Shown here piece by piece: positions 2-7,041 of a stretch of 64,000 nt of DNA (position 1 is its first letter; each line of letters starts with the position of its first letter). The DNA lies in contig JANYGI010000102.1 of assembly GCA_025362495.1 (NCBI GenBank), positions 1 to 64,000 of the forward strand, written 5' to 3'. Source of the DNA: Byssovorax sp. Lineage in GTDB: Bacteria > Myxococcota_A > Polyangia > Polyangiales > Polyangiaceae. The position numbers and the translations under genes were made by a program. The notes under the pieces are model-generated. The model was not told where the DNA came from. It made no database searches and saw nothing but the letters and a program-made list of their open reading frames with translations.

Positions 2-289
2 AAGAAGGTGGTGATCGACTTCGACGCCAAGGTCGCCGAGTTCGTGCGCACGCGGAAGGTCCACCCGTCGCAGGAGCTGGTGGTGCTGCCGAAGGGCGGC
101 GTGCGGATGACGATCATGATCGGCGATCTGACCGAGCTCGCGACCTGGGTGCTCGGCTTCGGCGAGACCGCCAAGGTGATCGAGCCGCCGGACCTCGTCG
201 ATCGCGTCACGCGCGAGCTGGAAGGCGCGCTCGCGCTCTACGGCAAGCGCCCGTTGCGCCCGACGAAGGTCGCTGCCGCCGAGGAATGA
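2..289 (+). CDS. WYL-domain transcriptional regulator, C-terminal end (5' end outside window)
   Basis: The open frame enters from the left edge, so only about 95 C-terminal residues are visible. They show the usual tail of WYL-family regulators: a beta-rich stretch with the HPSQ motif, then WVLGFGETAKVIEPP and a helix ending near ALALYG, which is the WCX dimerisation extension. The family binds DNA through an N-terminal winged helix, not visible here, and senses ligands through the WYL core. Codon use is GC-rich like the native chromosome. The next gene on the same strand, the OLD-type nuclease, begins 131 bases later. WYL proteins often regulate neighbouring defence genes, but that link is inference here. 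Confidence 0.8.
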   Translation, partial: KKVVIDFDAKVAEFVRTRKVHPSQELVVLPKGGVRMTIMIGDLTELATWVLGFGETAKVIEPPDLVDRVTRELEGALALYGKRPLRPTKVAAAEE

Positions 290-420: not shown

Positions 421-2895
421 ATGCGATTGTCTCGAGTCATCATCAGGCGCTTCAAATCGATCGACGAGCTGGAGATCCAGATCCCGGAGAAGGACGACAG
501 CCGGCAAGGCTCCGCCGACTTCGTCTCCATCGTTGGCGAAAACAACGTTGGCAAGTCGACGATCATGGGAGCCATCCGTCTGGCATGCCCTGGTAGCACC
601 AAGCCGACGCTGGATCACTTCCCGAACCGCCGACTGGATCACGGTCCGATCGAGGTCGAGTTGGAGTTCAATCGCCTCACTGAAGCCGACAAGAAAGAGC
701 ACGCGATTCGCGCTCACGTCTTCGTGGAAGATGGTCTGGAGAAGTATCGCATCAAGAAGGTGTGGGAGACGGCCGCAGCCCCGAAACACTTTGCCTACAC
801 TCAGAACAATGCGCAGGACCAATTTCGCGATTCTCCCGGCGGACTGACGAAGCAAGCGCTTGAAAAGCTCGGTGACGCTGGGAAAGAAGTTATCAAGGCC
901 GCCGAGAGCGAGGAGGCGAAGGGAACGAGAATCACCAAGGACGCGCTGCTTCAGGCTGCTATCAGGATCAAGTCCTCACTGATCGAGAGGGTCGATCTGG
1001 ACCCTTGGTCCCCGAACCCTGGGGGGAATGCTTCGAACCTCGACACCGTGCTCCCGAAAGTGATCTACGTTGCCGCGCTTCGCGAGACGGGAGACGTGAC
1101 AGATGTGGGCAAGGCTCAATCTCCTGTTCGGAAGATCGTCGAGGCGCTCTTCGAGCAGCAGCTCTCGAAGCATGAGAAGGTCATCGTCTTCAGACGAGCT
1201 GCGGAAGAGCTCGGGCAGCTGTTCGACGTGGAGGGTAAACACAAGATCGTGGCTCACGTCGAGTCGAGGATCACTTCGAGGCTCAAGGAGCTGATCAATA
1301 TCAGTGCTGAGCTGCAATTTGAGGCTCCGGACGTCACGTCGGACCTCGCAAGTCAGACCGAGCTCTGGATTCGTCACGATGGCGTATTGACGAAACCCGA
1401 GCAGCAGGGGCATGGTGCGCAAAGGTCCATCGTGCTCGCTCTTCTTCAGCTGTATGCTGAGCAGTTGCTGAAGGGTGATGTGGTCGAGCGGTCCAGGACC
1501 CTGTTTCTCGTCGAAGAGCCCGAGATATACATGCATCCAGGCATGTGTCGGCGTATGCGAGATGCCCTGCTGAAGATTGCGCAAAGCGGAGTCGGGCAAG
1601 TTGTGTGCACGACGCACTCCCCGGTATTCCTCGATCTGGCTGATCGTCACGATGGCATCGTCATTGTGCGGAGAAGTGGCGGGGCGCCGTTCAGAACACA
1701 ACGTGTCGACGACGTCTTCAAGCAAGATGAAGAAGATCGTGAGCAACGAGCTCGGCTCCGTATGCTCTTGAGCTTCGACTCCGCAGCGAACGAGGTCTTC
1801 TTCGCGGACAGTGTATGCTTGGTCGAAGGGGATTGCGAGGTCGCGGCGATCGAGGCGACTGCCCGGAAGCTTCACGAGCTCAAGAAAATCGATTTGCCGG
1901 CATATCTCGTCGCGCGCAGATCTGTGGCCGTCGTCAATTGCAGGGGGAAGTGGACGATTCCCGCCTTCCAGACTGTTCTCAAGGCCTTCGGCATCCGATA
2001 CCGCGTGGTTCACGATGAAGACACGTCTGACGGGCCGCGTCGCGCCAACGACCAGATCGCGGGACTTTTGTCCGCCGACGACCAGCGACGAGTCCATGTC
2101 CCCGACTTCGAGCGGCACGTGTTCGATGAGCGCTGGACTCGCGACAAACCGTGGAAAGCCACGATCAAGATCCGGGATGCAAAGGACGTCGATCCTCGAC
2201 TGGTCGAGTTCTTCGAGTTTGTGCTCGGAAAAAAGATTGAACAGCTATGCCAGTCGGAGGACGACGCAAGAGCGGCTCAATCTCTTCCTCCGCCCGCGTC
2301 GCTGATTCCAAGACGGGACGGCCGAGCTGAGCTCAGGAAGCTCGATATCTCCAAAGAGGAGATCCAGAGGGCTCAAAAGCTGGAGCAAGTTTTCAGGATC
2401 GCCGCCGGACCGAGCTTCACGCCCGACGTCACCGATGGCGTCCAAGCGTATCGGGTCGCGAGTTCACACCTCAGCATCTTCGCTCGAATCAAGGGAGATT
2501 CGATGGCGGATACGCTCCTCGATGGCGATGTTGTCGCTCTGGAGAGGCTTGATAACGTTTACCTGGAGCCGGTGACCGATGAAGCTGCCAAGCGGCCCAA
2601 AAATTCATTCTGTGATCGCATCGAGCACATGGGAATCTATGTTCTGGCGATCAACGATGACATCGATCAACGGGCATATACCACGAAGCGTGTGCGAGTG
2701 CAGGAGTTCATCGGCGGCGGCTGGATTTGTCAAATCTATGCCGACAATCCAGACGCTGGATGGGGCGAACGTGGCCTGAAGGAGATTCGTCGGAGTGATC
2801 GGGTACACTTTGCCGCAAAAGTCGTCGGTCTCGTCAATCAGAACAATGATGCTGAGCCTGCCGAGCCAGAGATCGTGCCGATCGCAGACACTTGA
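421..2895 (+). CDS. OLD-family ATPase/TOPRIM nuclease fused to a C-terminal LexA-like S24 peptidase domain
   Basis: 824 residues. The N-terminal ABC-type ATPase has Walker A GENNVGKST at 39-47, a Walker B-like LFLVEEPEIYMHP near 360 and a following TTHSP switch. A TOPRIM nuclease domain follows, with LVEGDCE at 467-473 and the acidic HDED at 531-534, as in overcoming-lysogenization-defect proteins. After about residue 655 the protein changes to a LexA/UmuD-like S24 fold: GDSM with serine 694, a GIYVLAI strand, lysine 756 in TTKRVRV, then YADNPD and AAKVVGLV. An AAG triplet at 661-663 sits 31 residues before the serine, close to the LexA cleavage geometry. Start: the ATG at 421 is preferred to an in-frame TTG at 406; no clear ribosome site is seen. 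Third codon positions are AT-richer than in neighbours, suggesting transfer. Function as an anti-phage or DNA-damage nuclease is inferred from the family. Confidence 0.88.
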   Translation: MRLSRVIIRRFKSIDELEIQIPEKDDSRQGSADFVSIVGENNVGKSTIMGAIRLACPGSTKPTLDHFPNRRLDHGPIEVELEFNRLTEADKKEHAIRAHVFVEDGLEKYRIKKVWETAAAPKHFAYTQNNAQDQFRDSPGGLTKQALEKLGDAGKEVIKAAESEEAKGTRITKDALLQAAIRIKSSLIERVDLDPWSPNPGGNASNLDTVLPKVIYVAALRETGDVTDVGKAQSPVRKIVEALFEQQLSKHEKVIVFRRAAEELGQLFDVEGKHKIVAHVESRITSRLKELINISAELQFEAPDVTSDLASQTELWIRHDGVLTKPEQQGHGAQRSIVLALLQLYAEQLLKGDVVERSRTLFLVEEPEIYMHPGMCRRMRDALLKIAQSGVGQVVCTTHSPVFLDLADRHDGIVIVRRSGGAPFRTQRVDDVFKQDEEDREQRARLRMLLSFDSAANEVFFADSVCLVEGDCEVAAIEATARKLHELKKIDLPAYLVARRSVAVVNCRGKWTIPAFQTVLKAFGIRYRVVHDEDTSDGPRRANDQIAGLLSADDQRRVHVPDFERHVFDERWTRDKPWKATIKIRDAKDVDPRLVEFFEFVLGKKIEQLCQSEDDARAAQSLPPPASLIPRRDGRAELRKLDISKEEIQRAQKLEQVFRIAAGPSFTPDVTDGVQAYRVASSHLSIFARIKGDSMADTLLDGDVVALERLDNVYLEPVTDEAAKRPKNSFCDRIEHMGIYVLAINDDIDQRAYTTKRVRVQEFIGGGWICQIYADNPDAGWGERGLKEIRRSDRVHFAAKVVGLVNQNNDAEPAEPEIVPIADT

Positions 2896-3312: not shown

Positions 3313-3383
3313 ATGGGTGATCTCGAAGTACTTCTCGCGCAGCTCGAAGCTCATCGGGAGAAATTGTCTACCCCTGAGGGCGG

Positions 3384-4139
3384 ATGGCCGCTCACGGCGT
3401 TCAGCGAGGCTCTGGAGGGGCTCCCGTTGTTCCATCGTCTCGGCGAGCCGCTGCGGGATCCGCGACCGCACTCGCACAGTCCGAAATCAAGCTCGAGGTC
3501 GCGAAGGCGAAGTCGGGGCGCGCCAAGCTGGGGATTGATGGGTGCCTGTTTGCCTCCTTCGGCGTGGCCGGATACCGGGAGCCGCCTGTCGTTCTGGCGT
3601 TCGGACCAGCCGAGCTGTCCGGCACGGGGCGGATCTCTGTCCCGTGGGACAGTCGTGGCGCCGGCAAGACGCTCAACCTAGCGGATGACTCCCATGAAGC
3701 GTTGATTGCTGAGTACAGCTTGGTCGCTCCGTTCGACCAGGACTACCTCGCGTCGCATCTCGCAACTTCCTTTCAGGAATGGGAGCGGTTCCTGTCCGGT
3801 GGTCGCCCGAAGGAACCCGATCCGCGGGGCGTCCTCCACAAGGCCATCTCGGCGCCACAAGGCGAGGAAACCACCTGGCTCACGACGCCTGAAGCGCGCC
3901 TCGAGCAGGATCTTCTCCTTGGCGACCGGCTCCTGGCGGTGTTCGTCGACGCCGACTTCCCCTCCGGCACGAACGGCAACAAGGAATGGCGCCGTACTTT
4001 CGCTGTGCTCCAGCGCGTCGCCGCCAATCGAAAAGCGGAGTTCGTGTCCATCCGGCGTAGCCTTGGGGCGGTGGACTACCGGCACCACACTTCAGCGCTC
4101 GTGATGCGTCGAATGCGAGCGTCAGGGTATATTCTATGA
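3384..4139 (+). CDS. Unknown accessory protein, first gene of a coupled pair; N-terminus probably displaced by a frameshift
   Basis: No family was recognised. In the sequenced frame the protein is 251 residues, but its first 30 (Pro/Ala/Arg-rich) look non-native. A better N-terminus lies in another frame from the ATG at 3313 (MGDLEVLLAQLEAHREKL, then WPLTAFSEALEGLPLFHRLG) and would join this frame near 3460-3478. A single-base indel there, real or from sequencing, is the simplest explanation, giving about 275 residues. The remainder looks genuine, with features such as FGVAGYREPPVVLAFG, EYSLVAPFDQDYLASHL and LLAVFVDADFP. The stop overlaps the next ATG (ATGA at 4136-4139), so the two genes are translationally coupled. 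Confidence 0.6.
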   Translation: MAAHGVQRGSGGAPVVPSSRRAAAGSATALAQSEIKLEVAKAKSGRAKLGIDGCLFASFGVAGYREPPVVLAFGPAELSGTGRISVPWDSRGAGKTLNLADDSHEALIAEYSLVAPFDQDYLASHLATSFQEWERFLSGGRPKEPDPRGVLHKAISAPQGEETTWLTTPEARLEQDLLLGDRLLAVFVDADFPSGTNGNKEWRRTFAVLQRVAANRKAEFVSIRRSLGAVDYRHHTSALVMRRMRASGYIL

Positions 4140-5256
4140 AGTCCTATCCTGCCGTGGGTTGGAAGGTTGGCTATGTGAATCGCCATGATGCGGAGCACCC
4201 GGACCGGCGTCGTCCCGCTCGCGTGCTTCTCCAGCGCGAAGGAATGACAGGCTGGCTGCTCCCGGTGTCAGGCGATCACCTCCGCCTCTTCGGCTATGTG
4301 CTCCCCGAGGACACATTCGAAATCGAGCCCGAGAAATGGATTCGTTACGAGGGCTCCCCCGCCTGGGCCCTCGGAAAATCACCGGTCGTGACGACCACGA
4401 CCCCGCTCGCGCTCGAGTTCGTCGATCCGCTCGAAGCTACCCGGCGACGTCGCACCGAAGCCTCGGAGGCCATCCTCGCGGCTCTCGTGTCCTCCCGCAA
4501 CGAGAGCCTCCTCGACCGCGCGTCCGACCTCGAGCACGCGGATCGGATCCTGGATGGTAACCCCGTCTCCGTGGCGGCCCTCCTCGCCCTCGGCGCGGAG
4601 GAATCTTCGATGGGCGCGGCGGAGCTGGACTCGCCGGAGCGCCTCCGGGATCGGCTGATCACCGTCTCTCCCTCCGGGCTCGACAAGCTCCGGAAGGAAA
4701 TGCAGAAGCCAGGATTCGAGCTCGTTCGAGGCAATCGCAAGTTGCACGACTCGTTGCTGGCCGCGGCCTCCGGCGCGTTCTCCTCGACAACCTCCGTGAG
4801 CCCCGGCCAATGGGCAAATCTCCGCTCGACCACCCTCTGGAAATGGTGGCTCAGATCGAAAATGGCGGCGGAAAAAGCTCCGTTGCGCCGCATGGCAACG
4901 AGTCTGAAATTACCACTGAAAGATCTCGAAGCCCTGGCGCGCGGCGACGCGCCACCCCGCGCCGACGTCCTGGCCCGACTCCCATCAGTCACAAACGCAC
5001 TGGCGGAGGTCAGCGCTCATTTCGAGGCATCGCCGGATCTCACCTTTGGCTATCGTGGCGGGCGACGACGCGCGACGCGGTCGAGAACGAGTGGACCTCG
5101 GATCACGCCACCGCCACGTTGGAAGTCGGCGAGCTACCTGGAGAGCTGGATCCACTCGGACGGCCGCGCTCGGCCTTCTTCGACCGGCTGGTCTCCGAAG
5201 CGCCGCTCGAAGGTCTGCTCACGCCCCAGGCTGCGGCTGAGCTCAACGCGGCGTAA
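4136..5256 (+). CDS. Unknown accessory protein, second gene of the coupled pair, with an apparent internal frameshift
   Basis: No family was recognised. The start ATG overlaps the previous stop. The frame from 4136 reads as good protein (GWKVGYVNRHD, LLPVSGDHLRLFGYVLPED, then a helical middle) to about FEASPDLTF at 5045 and then turns into Arg/Ser-rich nonsense. Plausible coding resumes in other frames: AIVAGDDAR near 5049-5075, then DAVENEWTSDHATATLEVG to the TAA at 5254-5256. One or more indels between about 5040 and 5080 must be assumed to give one protein of roughly 373 residues. Whether this is decay, a sequencing error or programmed shifting cannot be told from sequence. As sequenced, the first frame would run to 5503 and overlap the next gene by about 200 bases, which argues against that reading. 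Confidence 0.55.
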
Positions 5257-5306
5257 CGCCGCGAAAATACCCTTTCAACCCATCCGCCGCTGTGTACTCT
5301 CCCGAA

Positions 5307-6149
5307 ATGGCAAAGAGCAAGTCAGGCAGCGCCCCGTCCAAGAAGTCCAAGGCCTCCGCGAAGCTCCCGCTGGACTTCGTCGAGAAATACCGCGTGCTCG
5401 CCGCGAAGCTCCCGGCCGACCGCGTGCAAGTATGCCGCGCCGACGTGCGGATAGCTGCCTACAACATCAAGCTCGGCGTCGAGTCTGTCTTCGGCTCCGG
5501 TGAGGACAAGCAAGAGCGCGAAGCAAAGACCAAGTCGATCGAGGAGCAGCTCCCCAAGCTCTCTTCCAAGAAGGCGCTCGAGCTGCCCGGTATCGCCCGT
5601 GCCCTCGTTCTCACGGCGCAGAAGGTCACACCGGTGGTGAGCACAGGTGAGATCGAAGCGAAGCTCGCCGTCGTCGCCGGCCTGCGCGAGCCGATCCTCA
5701 GCGCGGCGGAGCTCCTGGCTGGCAAGGGCTACCTGCCCACCTCCGACGTCGCCAAGATCCGCGCTGGCACCGGCAAGTTCGACCAGGCCAGCGACGGTGT
5801 CGCGCTCGTTCTCCTCTTCGCCAAGTACGCGGCGGAGGTGACGGGCAAACACCCGTTCACCGCAGAAGACTTCACGACGCTTCGTGAAGCGAGCGAGTGG
5901 CTGATGGACAGGTTGACCCCCGCAGGCGCGAAGAAGGCGCCCGCAGCGCGGCGCGACGAGGAGGATCTGCGCGACCGGTTCTGGACGTTGCTCGTCGAGC
6001 GCCACCCCGACCTGCGGGTGATGGGCTACGTGCTGTTCCAGGAAGACTTCGACACGAAGGTGCCGCGCTTGCAATCGCGCGTCGCCGGTGCGCGCGCCGG
6101 TGGCGAGGGCGAGAGCGGGCCCGCGGCGGCTCCGCCCACCGGAGGTTGA
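5307..6149 (+). CDS. Hypothetical protein, Lys/Ser-rich N-terminus, mostly helical
   Basis: 280 residues from the ATG at 5307; a GTG at 5292 would add five residues and is less likely. The N-terminus is a basic low-complexity stretch (KSKSGSAPSKKSKASAK), followed by a helical body with segments such as VRIAAYNIKLGVESVFGSG and DGVALVLLFAKYAAEV, and a Gly/Ala/Pro-rich tail. No catalytic motif, signal peptide or membrane segment was recognised. It sits between the frameshifted pair and xisH on the same strand. Codon bias is closer to the native chromosome than that of the OLD gene. Confidence 0.7.
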   Translation: MAKSKSGSAPSKKSKASAKLPLDFVEKYRVLAAKLPADRVQVCRADVRIAAYNIKLGVESVFGSGEDKQEREAKTKSIEEQLPKLSSKKALELPGIARALVLTAQKVTPVVSTGEIEAKLAVVAGLREPILSAAELLAGKGYLPTSDVAKIRAGTGKFDQASDGVALVLLFAKYAAEVTGKHPFTAEDFTTLREASEWLMDRLTPAGAKKAPAARRDEEDLRDRFWTLLVERHPDLRVMGYVLFQEDFDTKVPRLQSRVAGARAGGEGESGPAAAPPTGG

Positions 6150-6301: not shown

Positions 6302-6718
6302 ATGCCCGCCCATGACCGGGACCATGACGCCGTCTGTGCCGCGCTCGTCGCCGACGGGTGGACCATCACCGGCGACCCGCTGCACCTGCGCTACGCAGGC
6401 GATGACCTGTACATCGACCTCGCCGCCGAGAGGCTAATCGCGGCCGAGAAGGGGCCTCAGCGCATCGCGGTGGAGATCAAGAGCTTCCGCGGCCCGTCAG
6501 AGCGCGCAGATCTCCACGTCGCCGTGGGGCAGTTCGTGGTGTACCGCGAAGTGCTTTCGGAAATGGACCCGCAGCGCGAGCTCTATCTTGCCGTCACCGA
6601 AGAGGTGCGCGCCGAGGTCTTCGAGTCGGGCGTCGCGCGGATGATCCTGACCCGACAGATCCGGCGGCTCGTTTCCTACGACCCCGCGAGAAAGGTGATC
6701 GTCCGATGGATCCCGTAG
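6302..6718 (+). CDS. xisH: XisH family protein (PD-(D/E)XK-like)
   Basis: 138 residues that follow the XisH family closely along their whole length: the N-terminal HDAVCAALVADGWTITGDP, the core DLYIDLAAERLIAAEK and the IAVEIKSF strand, ending in ARKVIVRWIP. Aspartate 39 and E58-x-K60 fit a restriction-endonuclease-like active site. XisH was named for a role in developmental excision of the cyanobacterial fdxN element together with XisF and XisI; its biochemical activity is not well defined. It overlaps xisI by 13 bases, so the two are coupled. No xisF-type recombinase is in the window, so element excision is not implied here. Confidence 0.88.
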   Translation: MPAHDRDHDAVCAALVADGWTITGDPLHLRYAGDDLYIDLAAERLIAAEKGPQRIAVEIKSFRGPSERADLHVAVGQFVVYREVLSEMDPQRELYLAVTEEVRAEVFESGVARMILTRQIRRLVSYDPARKVIVRWIP

Positions 6719-7041
6719 ACCGCTACCGAGACGCCGTCATGACCGTGCTCCGCCCGTGGGAGCAGCGTCCGGGCCCGCAGTCGACCCTCCGCTTCGAGGC
6801 CGTGTTCGACCGCGAGCACGATCACTACCTCGTGGTCGTCGTCGGCTGGGATGGCCCGCATCACGTCCACTCGACGCTCGTCCACATCGACGTGATCGAC
6901 GGCAAGCTGTGGATTCAGCACGACCAGACCGAGGAAGGCGTGGCGCCGGAGCTGGTCGCCGCGGGCGTCCCTCGCGATCGGATCGTGCTTGGATTCAAGT
7001 CCCCTGCTCGTCGCGCGGTCAGCGAATTCGCGGTGTCATGA
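6706..7041 (+). CDS. xisI: XisI family protein, partner of XisH
   Basis: 111 residues with the typical XisI pattern: N-terminal YRDAVMTVLRPW, central DHYLVVVVGWDGPHHVHST, then LVHIDVIDGKLWIQHDQTEEG and VAPELVAAGVPRDRIVLGFKSP. These residues define a small domain almost always found next to XisH. The ATG lies inside the end of xisH, so expression is coupled. The function outside cyanobacteria is unknown; the constant pairing suggests a complex or a toxin-antitoxin-like relation, which is inference. Confidence 0.88.
   Translation: MDPVDRYRDAVMTVLRPWEQRPGPQSTLRFEAVFDREHDHYLVVVVGWDGPHHVHSTLVHIDVIDGKLWIQHDQTEEGVAPELVAAGVPRDRIVLGFKSPARRAVSEFAVS

Follow-up and report, generated by a model that had tools for sequence, protein, structure and literature searches.

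Can a nuclease of the OLD family carry its own switch? The question is raised by a single open frame of 824 codons (421-2895, plus strand) in the window, by which we mean the whole stretch of 64,000 nucleotides of Byssovorax sp. DNA that was analysed. The original prediction read the encoded protein (P0001, 824 aa) as an OLD nuclease continued into a LexA-like S24 peptidase domain; the frame is indeed open over its full length, and the same architecture is found in a second genome (G366). Judged from its sequence, P0001 has a class-1-like OLD nuclease in residues 1 to ~610 and, after it, an S24 domain in residues ~654-806. Its features are as follows.

421..2895 (+): OLD-S24 fusion gene, 824 aa; an open frame whose G366 homologue has the same MRLS start and domain order
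421..1629 (+): ABC-type ATPase domain, residues 1-403 (Pfam AAA_15, 3.8e-25)
535..558 (+): Walker A motif GENNVGKS with K45, aligned with K37 of P2 Old
1513..1515 (+): E365 at the Walker B position, aligned with D299 of P2 Old
1798..2022 (+): TOPRIM nuclease domain, residues 460-534 (OLD-like_TOPRIM, PF20469, 5.2e-14), with E469, E473, D532 and D534 aligned with E398, E402, D453 and D455 of P2 Old
2023..2250 (+): remaining OLD C-terminus, residues 535-610, with PDFE (D562, E564) and DKPWKA (K576), common to the Exiguobacterium pE73 OLD
2251..2379 (+): poorly conserved linker, residues 611-653; 6 of 42 residues (611-652) identical to G366
2380..2838 (+): predicted S24 domain, residues 654-806 (Pfam S24, below cut-off here and above it in the homologue; PHROG match in the homologue; threaded model)
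2404..2409 (+): A662-G663, candidate site of self-cleavage, matching the LexA Ala-Gly in alignments; A717-G718 in the homologue
2500..2502 (+): S694, nucleophile predicted from alignments (GDSM)
2548..2631 (+): segment 710-737 between the serine and lysine strands, longer than its LexA counterpart in alignments and present in the homologue too
2686..2688 (+): K756, general base predicted from alignments (TTKRV)

A class-1-like OLD nuclease with a C-terminal extension

Profile searches, which the original prediction had proposed for both halves, gave a clear answer for the OLD half through the AAA_15 and PF20469 matches. Among PADLOC models, the Old family matched P0001 best (2.7e-72, 242 bits), ahead of AriA (104 bits), the best GajA model (95 bits) and AriAB (48 bits), and its best PDB match was the OLD-family nuclease 6p74 (2.6e-19), the class 1 OLD of Thermus scotoductus (PMC10568477). 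In an alignment with P2 Old (catalytic residues as given in PMC7049728), P0001 has both the ATPase motifs of class 1 OLD proteins (K45, E365, H372 in the D-loop and H399 in the H-loop) and their TOPRIM metal A residues (E469, D532 and D534), which bears out the Walker A, Walker B and TOPRIM residues originally claimed; T. scotoductus OLD has a glutamate, E276, at the Walker B position (PMC7049728). For metal B, E473 aligns with P2 Old, and the later pair and the K/R were misaligned by MAFFT; by eye, we propose D562/E564 and K576 for these positions.

The original comparison was with the partner-controlled nucleases of Gabija, PARIS and retrons. Gabija GajA, PARIS AriA/AriB and the retron Eco8 effector do share the OLD-type ATPase and TOPRIM domains with the fusion. 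Yet their control lies with a partner gene or RNA, whereas the fusion has a candidate control domain in the same chain and gives lower scores on their profiles: it matches Old best rather than the AriA/AriB models of PARIS, and it falls under the cut-off of the retron Eco8 effector (class 3 OLD) model, NCBIfam NF038234 (30.3 bits against 250). In Gabija (class 2 OLD) the helicase gene gajB lies directly downstream, whereas neither a Pfam scan of the eight frames downstream of the fusion, as far as 9486, nor a PADLOC scan of three of these matched a helicase; upstream, the contig holds only 420 bases. No reverse transcriptase was found among the scanned neighbours. Class 1 OLD proteins are single genes (PMC10568477), and since the nuclease is nearest to these stand-alone enzymes (P2 Old and 6p74 share its ATPase and TOPRIM domains and its ATPase and metal A residues), the comparison with the partner-controlled systems applies less. 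The nuclease-S24 fusion itself is real and recurrent.

The class 1 OLD chain ends with the TOPRIM domain, whereas P0001 continues for about 210 further C-terminal residues that include the S24 domain. Where the nuclease ends can be read from an OLD protein of the Exiguobacterium alkaliphilum plasmid pE73 (WP_211781055.1, 643 aa), which is 34% identical to P0001 over residues 1-604, shares its PxFE...DKPW tail, has no S24 domain and ends just beyond the segment matching P0001 ~610, where the linker of P0001 begins. A fragment 1-662 of P0001 would therefore contain the entire OLD, to which cleavage at 662 would leave about 50 residues attached as a tail.

No S24 gene was seen in a 14 kb stretch around the pE73 OLD gene. 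Pfam likewise found no S24 domain in three OLD-only relatives (L011, L012, L013), and our own profiles found no separate S24 gene near the OLD genes of L011-L017, L022, L198 and the viral contig L024, the best other score being 5.2 bits (E 0.68). The same run recovered the G366 fusion; a general S24 profile found it at only 10.5 bits (E 0.017) and is therefore not very sensitive to diverged domains. With no separate S24 gene beside its OLD relatives, the link between the two domains gets no support from an unfused pair.

Recurrence and genomic surroundings of the fusion

The homologue in G366, a genome of the same class and another family, is a protein of 881 aa (P0002) that is 47% identical to P0001 over residues 197-805 (E 7.4e-150), a match that spans the junction, and 44% identical over the alignment; both are stop-free frames with the same MRLS start and the same domain order. 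A search for other proteins with this order had been suggested at the outset, together with the concern that the fusion might be a rare assembly artefact; a second genome with the same joined gene means that it is not. As far as the sequences tell, the fusion is inherited or transferred as one unit.

It was found in two genomes, the window's own and G366. With the whole protein as query, seven of 39 relatives matched at E <= 0.001 (the own genome and six short OLD matches), as did three of 377 genomes of the phylum at E <= 1e-20 (own, G366 and G039, the last matching 26-535), two of 288 genomes of the class (G366 and G514, the latter matching 30-534), one of six in the family of G366 (G366) and two of 108 in that of the window (own and G514). 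With the C-terminal part, three of six chosen sequences matched (own, G366 and the OLD tail of pE73), and one genome each among 302 of the phylum (own), 14 (G366) and 110 (own); these samples overlap, and the larger groups were sampled rather than fully covered. The C-terminal part matched none of 398 and none of 247 genomes in two other phyla, where, without a known positive, an empty answer shows nothing. A scan of genome contigs gave six OLD relatives among 24 stretches, none matching past residue 591; the G366 locus was not among its matches, a sign of limited sensitivity. Among viral contigs, 228 stretches matched the pattern of the S24 part and none was a relative, and the whole protein found none either, with one OLD-only relative (L024) among 72 stretches. 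In plasmids and phages the S24 part matched only the pE73 OLD tail, apart from chance-level matches such as a Vibrio phage repressor (E 7), and no plasmid (96 records) or phage (8 records) record covered 80% of the whole-protein query.

Both copies look acquired. The GC content of the fusion gene is 57.5% against 69.6% for the window, with no lower stretch of its length in the window (step of 10 bases), and the G366 copy, at 46% against 59% over a 20 kb stretch, is again the lowest; about 5.6 kb downstream of that copy is a gene for a serine recombinase. When the 524 frames of the window were compared with the 173 of the G366 stretch, the fusion was the only close match; the remaining matches were a window frame near 62-63 kb, 27% identical to a radical-SAM-like frame (L021:11860-12843), and two short frames.

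WYL regulators often adjoin defence genes, and window positions 2-289 encode the WCX C-terminal end of one (9.7e-17), cut by the contig start. At third positions its GC is 0.94, and that of the fusion gene 0.68, so we do not count it in the system. Upstream of the fusion gene, palindromes and promoters gave nothing usable.

Several neighbouring genes are recorded here as observations in their own right. At 3313-5503 the window has frames that match no family and have a GC of 0.72 at third positions, of which 3313-3681 and 3384-4139 may, by eye, be one gene split by a frameshift. Adjoining xisH and xisI genes, known from cyanobacterial excision elements, lie at 6302-7041 (Pfam, 9.5e-45 and 1.6e-36). 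Upstream of the G366 fusion, and not adjacent to it, is a gene with two HTH_3 repeats (L021:5088-5627, minus strand; PADLOC RmrA 6e-14, CapH 6e-12), and near the fusion a P-loop ATPase (L021:3250-4473, minus strand), with weak similarity to mad8 from the MADS defence system (2e-5), stands in an operon-like run with two genes without a family match.

The S24 domain and its candidate cleavage site

The C-terminal half had been described as a complete S24 domain. The predicted catalytic pair is there, S694 and K756 in P0001 and, by alignment, S749 and K810 in the homologue, but completeness is not backed by P0001's own Pfam score: the match is weak (0.012, residues 683-712, 15.7 bits in the whole protein), and the C-terminal part alone reaches 19.5 bits, under the Peptidase_S24 cut-off of 23.3. 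The homologue lies above it (26.4 bits as a whole protein, 31.7 for the part alone), and its S24 domain matches the PHROG repressor family phrog_4 (8e-8) over residues 715-835, from the cleavage site on, and a CI-like family (5.7e-6). With an S24 profile of our own, the cut-out domains of P0002 (14.7 bits) and P0001 (11.3 bits) took ranks 1-2 against 4524 decoys, which include the window frame holding P0001 itself (8.3 bits); whole P0001 scored 8.4 bits, below one shuffled decoy (8.7). The window's genome has a second S24-matching protein of 100 aa (L031:1420-1722, minus strand), 0.2 bits over the Pfam cut-off.

What the first reading had missed is a candidate cleavage site. P0001 has an Ala-Gly pair, A662-G663, within FRIAAGP, and the homologue has A717-G718 within FGISAGP; alignments with LexA, UmuD and cI and with 25 viral S24 proteins place the fusion's Ala-Gly on the known cleavage site, at which the aligned S24 rows mostly read Ala-Gly (Cys-Gly in UmuD). 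In hhalign, the two fusion domains matched five known proteins (LexA, UmuD, cI) with AG on AG and GDSM on GDSM (E 2.5e-4), at a probability of 43% and with the aligned part stopping before the lysine. A two-domain profile run against the PDB returned no LexA, giving two unrelated weak matches, and BLASTP of P0001 and P0002 against the LexA proteins of their hosts gave nothing meaningful. The order of motifs in the fusion, Ala-Gly (or Cys-Gly) site, serine, lysine, is that of LexA, UmuD and lambda cI. In those proteins the partner is a DNA-binding domain or a short arm, whereas here it is a nuclease, and the segment between serine and lysine is longer.

Conservation between the two fusions is concentrated at these points. 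The S24 parts are identical at 66 of 151 positions, with A, G, S and K all kept. Around the site (658-667) 5 of 10 residues are identical, compared with 9 of 67 flanking ones (p 0.015), around the serine (690-704) 11 of 15 and around the lysine (752-760) 5 of 9. A wider block around the site (653-664, 7 of 12) gives a smaller p; it was picked after the alignment had been inspected and is not relied on.

Structure prediction against LexA and UmuD, proposed originally as a check, gave a divided result. The single-sequence model of the S24 domain (pLDDT 33) was unusable and was discarded. A model with 24 viral S24 proteins as alignment rows reached pLDDT 67.6 and pTM 0.65, with low confidence in the stretch directly after the cleavage site, and was nearest to LexA 1jhh (Z 9.7, rmsd 3.3, 102 aligned), lambda cI with RecA 8gmu (9.5) and UmuD' 1ay9 (8.7); after the S24 chains came signal peptidases of the related S26 fold (Z 6.2 and below) and the first unrelated fold (3.8), in a ranking of 991 chains, all from Foldseek's own list, in which a Z under ~8 may reflect a mere common arrangement. 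Foldseek itself placed cI and LexA on top (E 0.066 and 0.14, TM about 0.35), with no E under 0.001. As S24 rows were fed in, the model is a threading result: the sequence fits onto the S24 fold, which is less than showing that it adopts this fold independently.

Self-cleavage as a possible control of the nuclease

Given that the fusion recurs with the S24 catalytic pair and the site kept, the evidence is best read as one protein combining a nuclease with its self-cleaving switch, and from the sequence the S24 domain probably is such a switch. Our overall view, which stays somewhat short of even confidence, is that it controls an immune nuclease, more likely by releasing than by destroying it, and that the SOS response probably sets it off. 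In the uncleaved protein, the S24 domain at the TOPRIM end would restrain the nuclease. A RecA filament on single-stranded DNA, arising from damage or phage attack, would be the signal for S694 and K756 to break the A662-G663 bond. This would free a fragment 1-662, similar in size to a stand-alone OLD, which could then attack DNA ends of phage or cell. The protein would thus be an inactive precursor whose own S24 domain sets an immune nuclease free, with RecA filaments as the likely trigger and no repressor or transcription step before DNA destruction, an account that we put forward, taken whole, with reserve.

RecA as the trigger is, by analogy, only a little short of an even call. Each host has its own LexA, which makes it likely that SOS signalling is available. 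The formation of RecA filaments prompts self-cleavage in LexA-type S24 proteins; one of them, IrvR, cleaves itself without RecA, via N-terminal dimerisation (PMC7101444). T. scotoductus OLD is a dimer (PMC10568477), and therefore either a RecA route or an IrvR-like dimerisation route is possible.

That cleavage switches the nuclease on is tentative, and the opposite direction, though unlikely, has evidence behind it. The full-length nuclease might be active, and self-cleavage during the SOS response might expose a C-terminal ...FRIAA to ClpXP, sparing the host's broken DNA. T. scotoductus OLD, a class 1 enzyme, is an active nuclease without an activator, which counts against an on switch, and P2 Old kills recBC hosts (PMC7049728). 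LexA-like proteins have buried ClpXP C-degrons adjoining the cleavage site (PMC5742171), which favours an off switch, and ClpX eliminates LexA's N-terminal part and also targets that of CI (PMC10584840). The new end of P0001, RIAA, occurs identically in the LexA of its host, which reads GRIAAG and so has RIAAG in common with the P0001 site. However, the homologue would end in GISA, and its host's LexA reads GRVAAG, so the degron is not clearly kept. With the RIAA end absent from the homologue and the freed part a whole OLD, we lean towards release; it is a lean and not a result.

S24 domains dimerise, and it is rather unlikely, but conceivable, that the domain has lost its peptidase and serves in dimerisation or in docking on RecA or DNA. 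The weak profile scores and the longer serine-lysine segment point to such drift, but the serine, the lysine and the Ala-Gly site are kept in both proteins, and conservation is higher around the site than in the flanks. Under certain conditions UmuD and LexA are capable of cleavage in trans, and the domain might cleave another protein, a repressor or a phage protein, with the nuclease merely as its partner; the kept cis site speaks against this, as does the lack of a shared gene close to both fusions among the 524 and 173 frames compared, and we regard it as very improbable. A read-through, an assembly join or a false S24 match, for which one could cite the sub-threshold S24 match of P0001, the window's position at the contig start (C218:1) and the mere two cases, is rejected as having next to no likelihood, since G366 carries the same fusion, stop-free as in the window and 47% identical across the junction, and the contig runs to 222,707 bases.

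The original prediction knew of no description of this fusion, and we found none in the literature, a search of open-licence papers only and hence not proof; by term search, S24 or LexA is not mentioned in the OLD review PMC10568477 or in PMC12839542, PMC10853773 and PMC5512222, nor OLD in PMC3765255. The OLD nuclease is known; the built-in S24 domain is what is new. The targets of known S24 switches are repressors or a polymerase subunit, and an S24 domain joined to a nuclease would couple the SOS signal to the effector in one step. Whether the bacterial class 1 proteins alone defend broadly against phages is an outstanding question (PMC10568477). A self-cleaving version would provide a direct handle on how class 1 OLD proteins are restrained, because single changes, S694A or G663D, should lock it.
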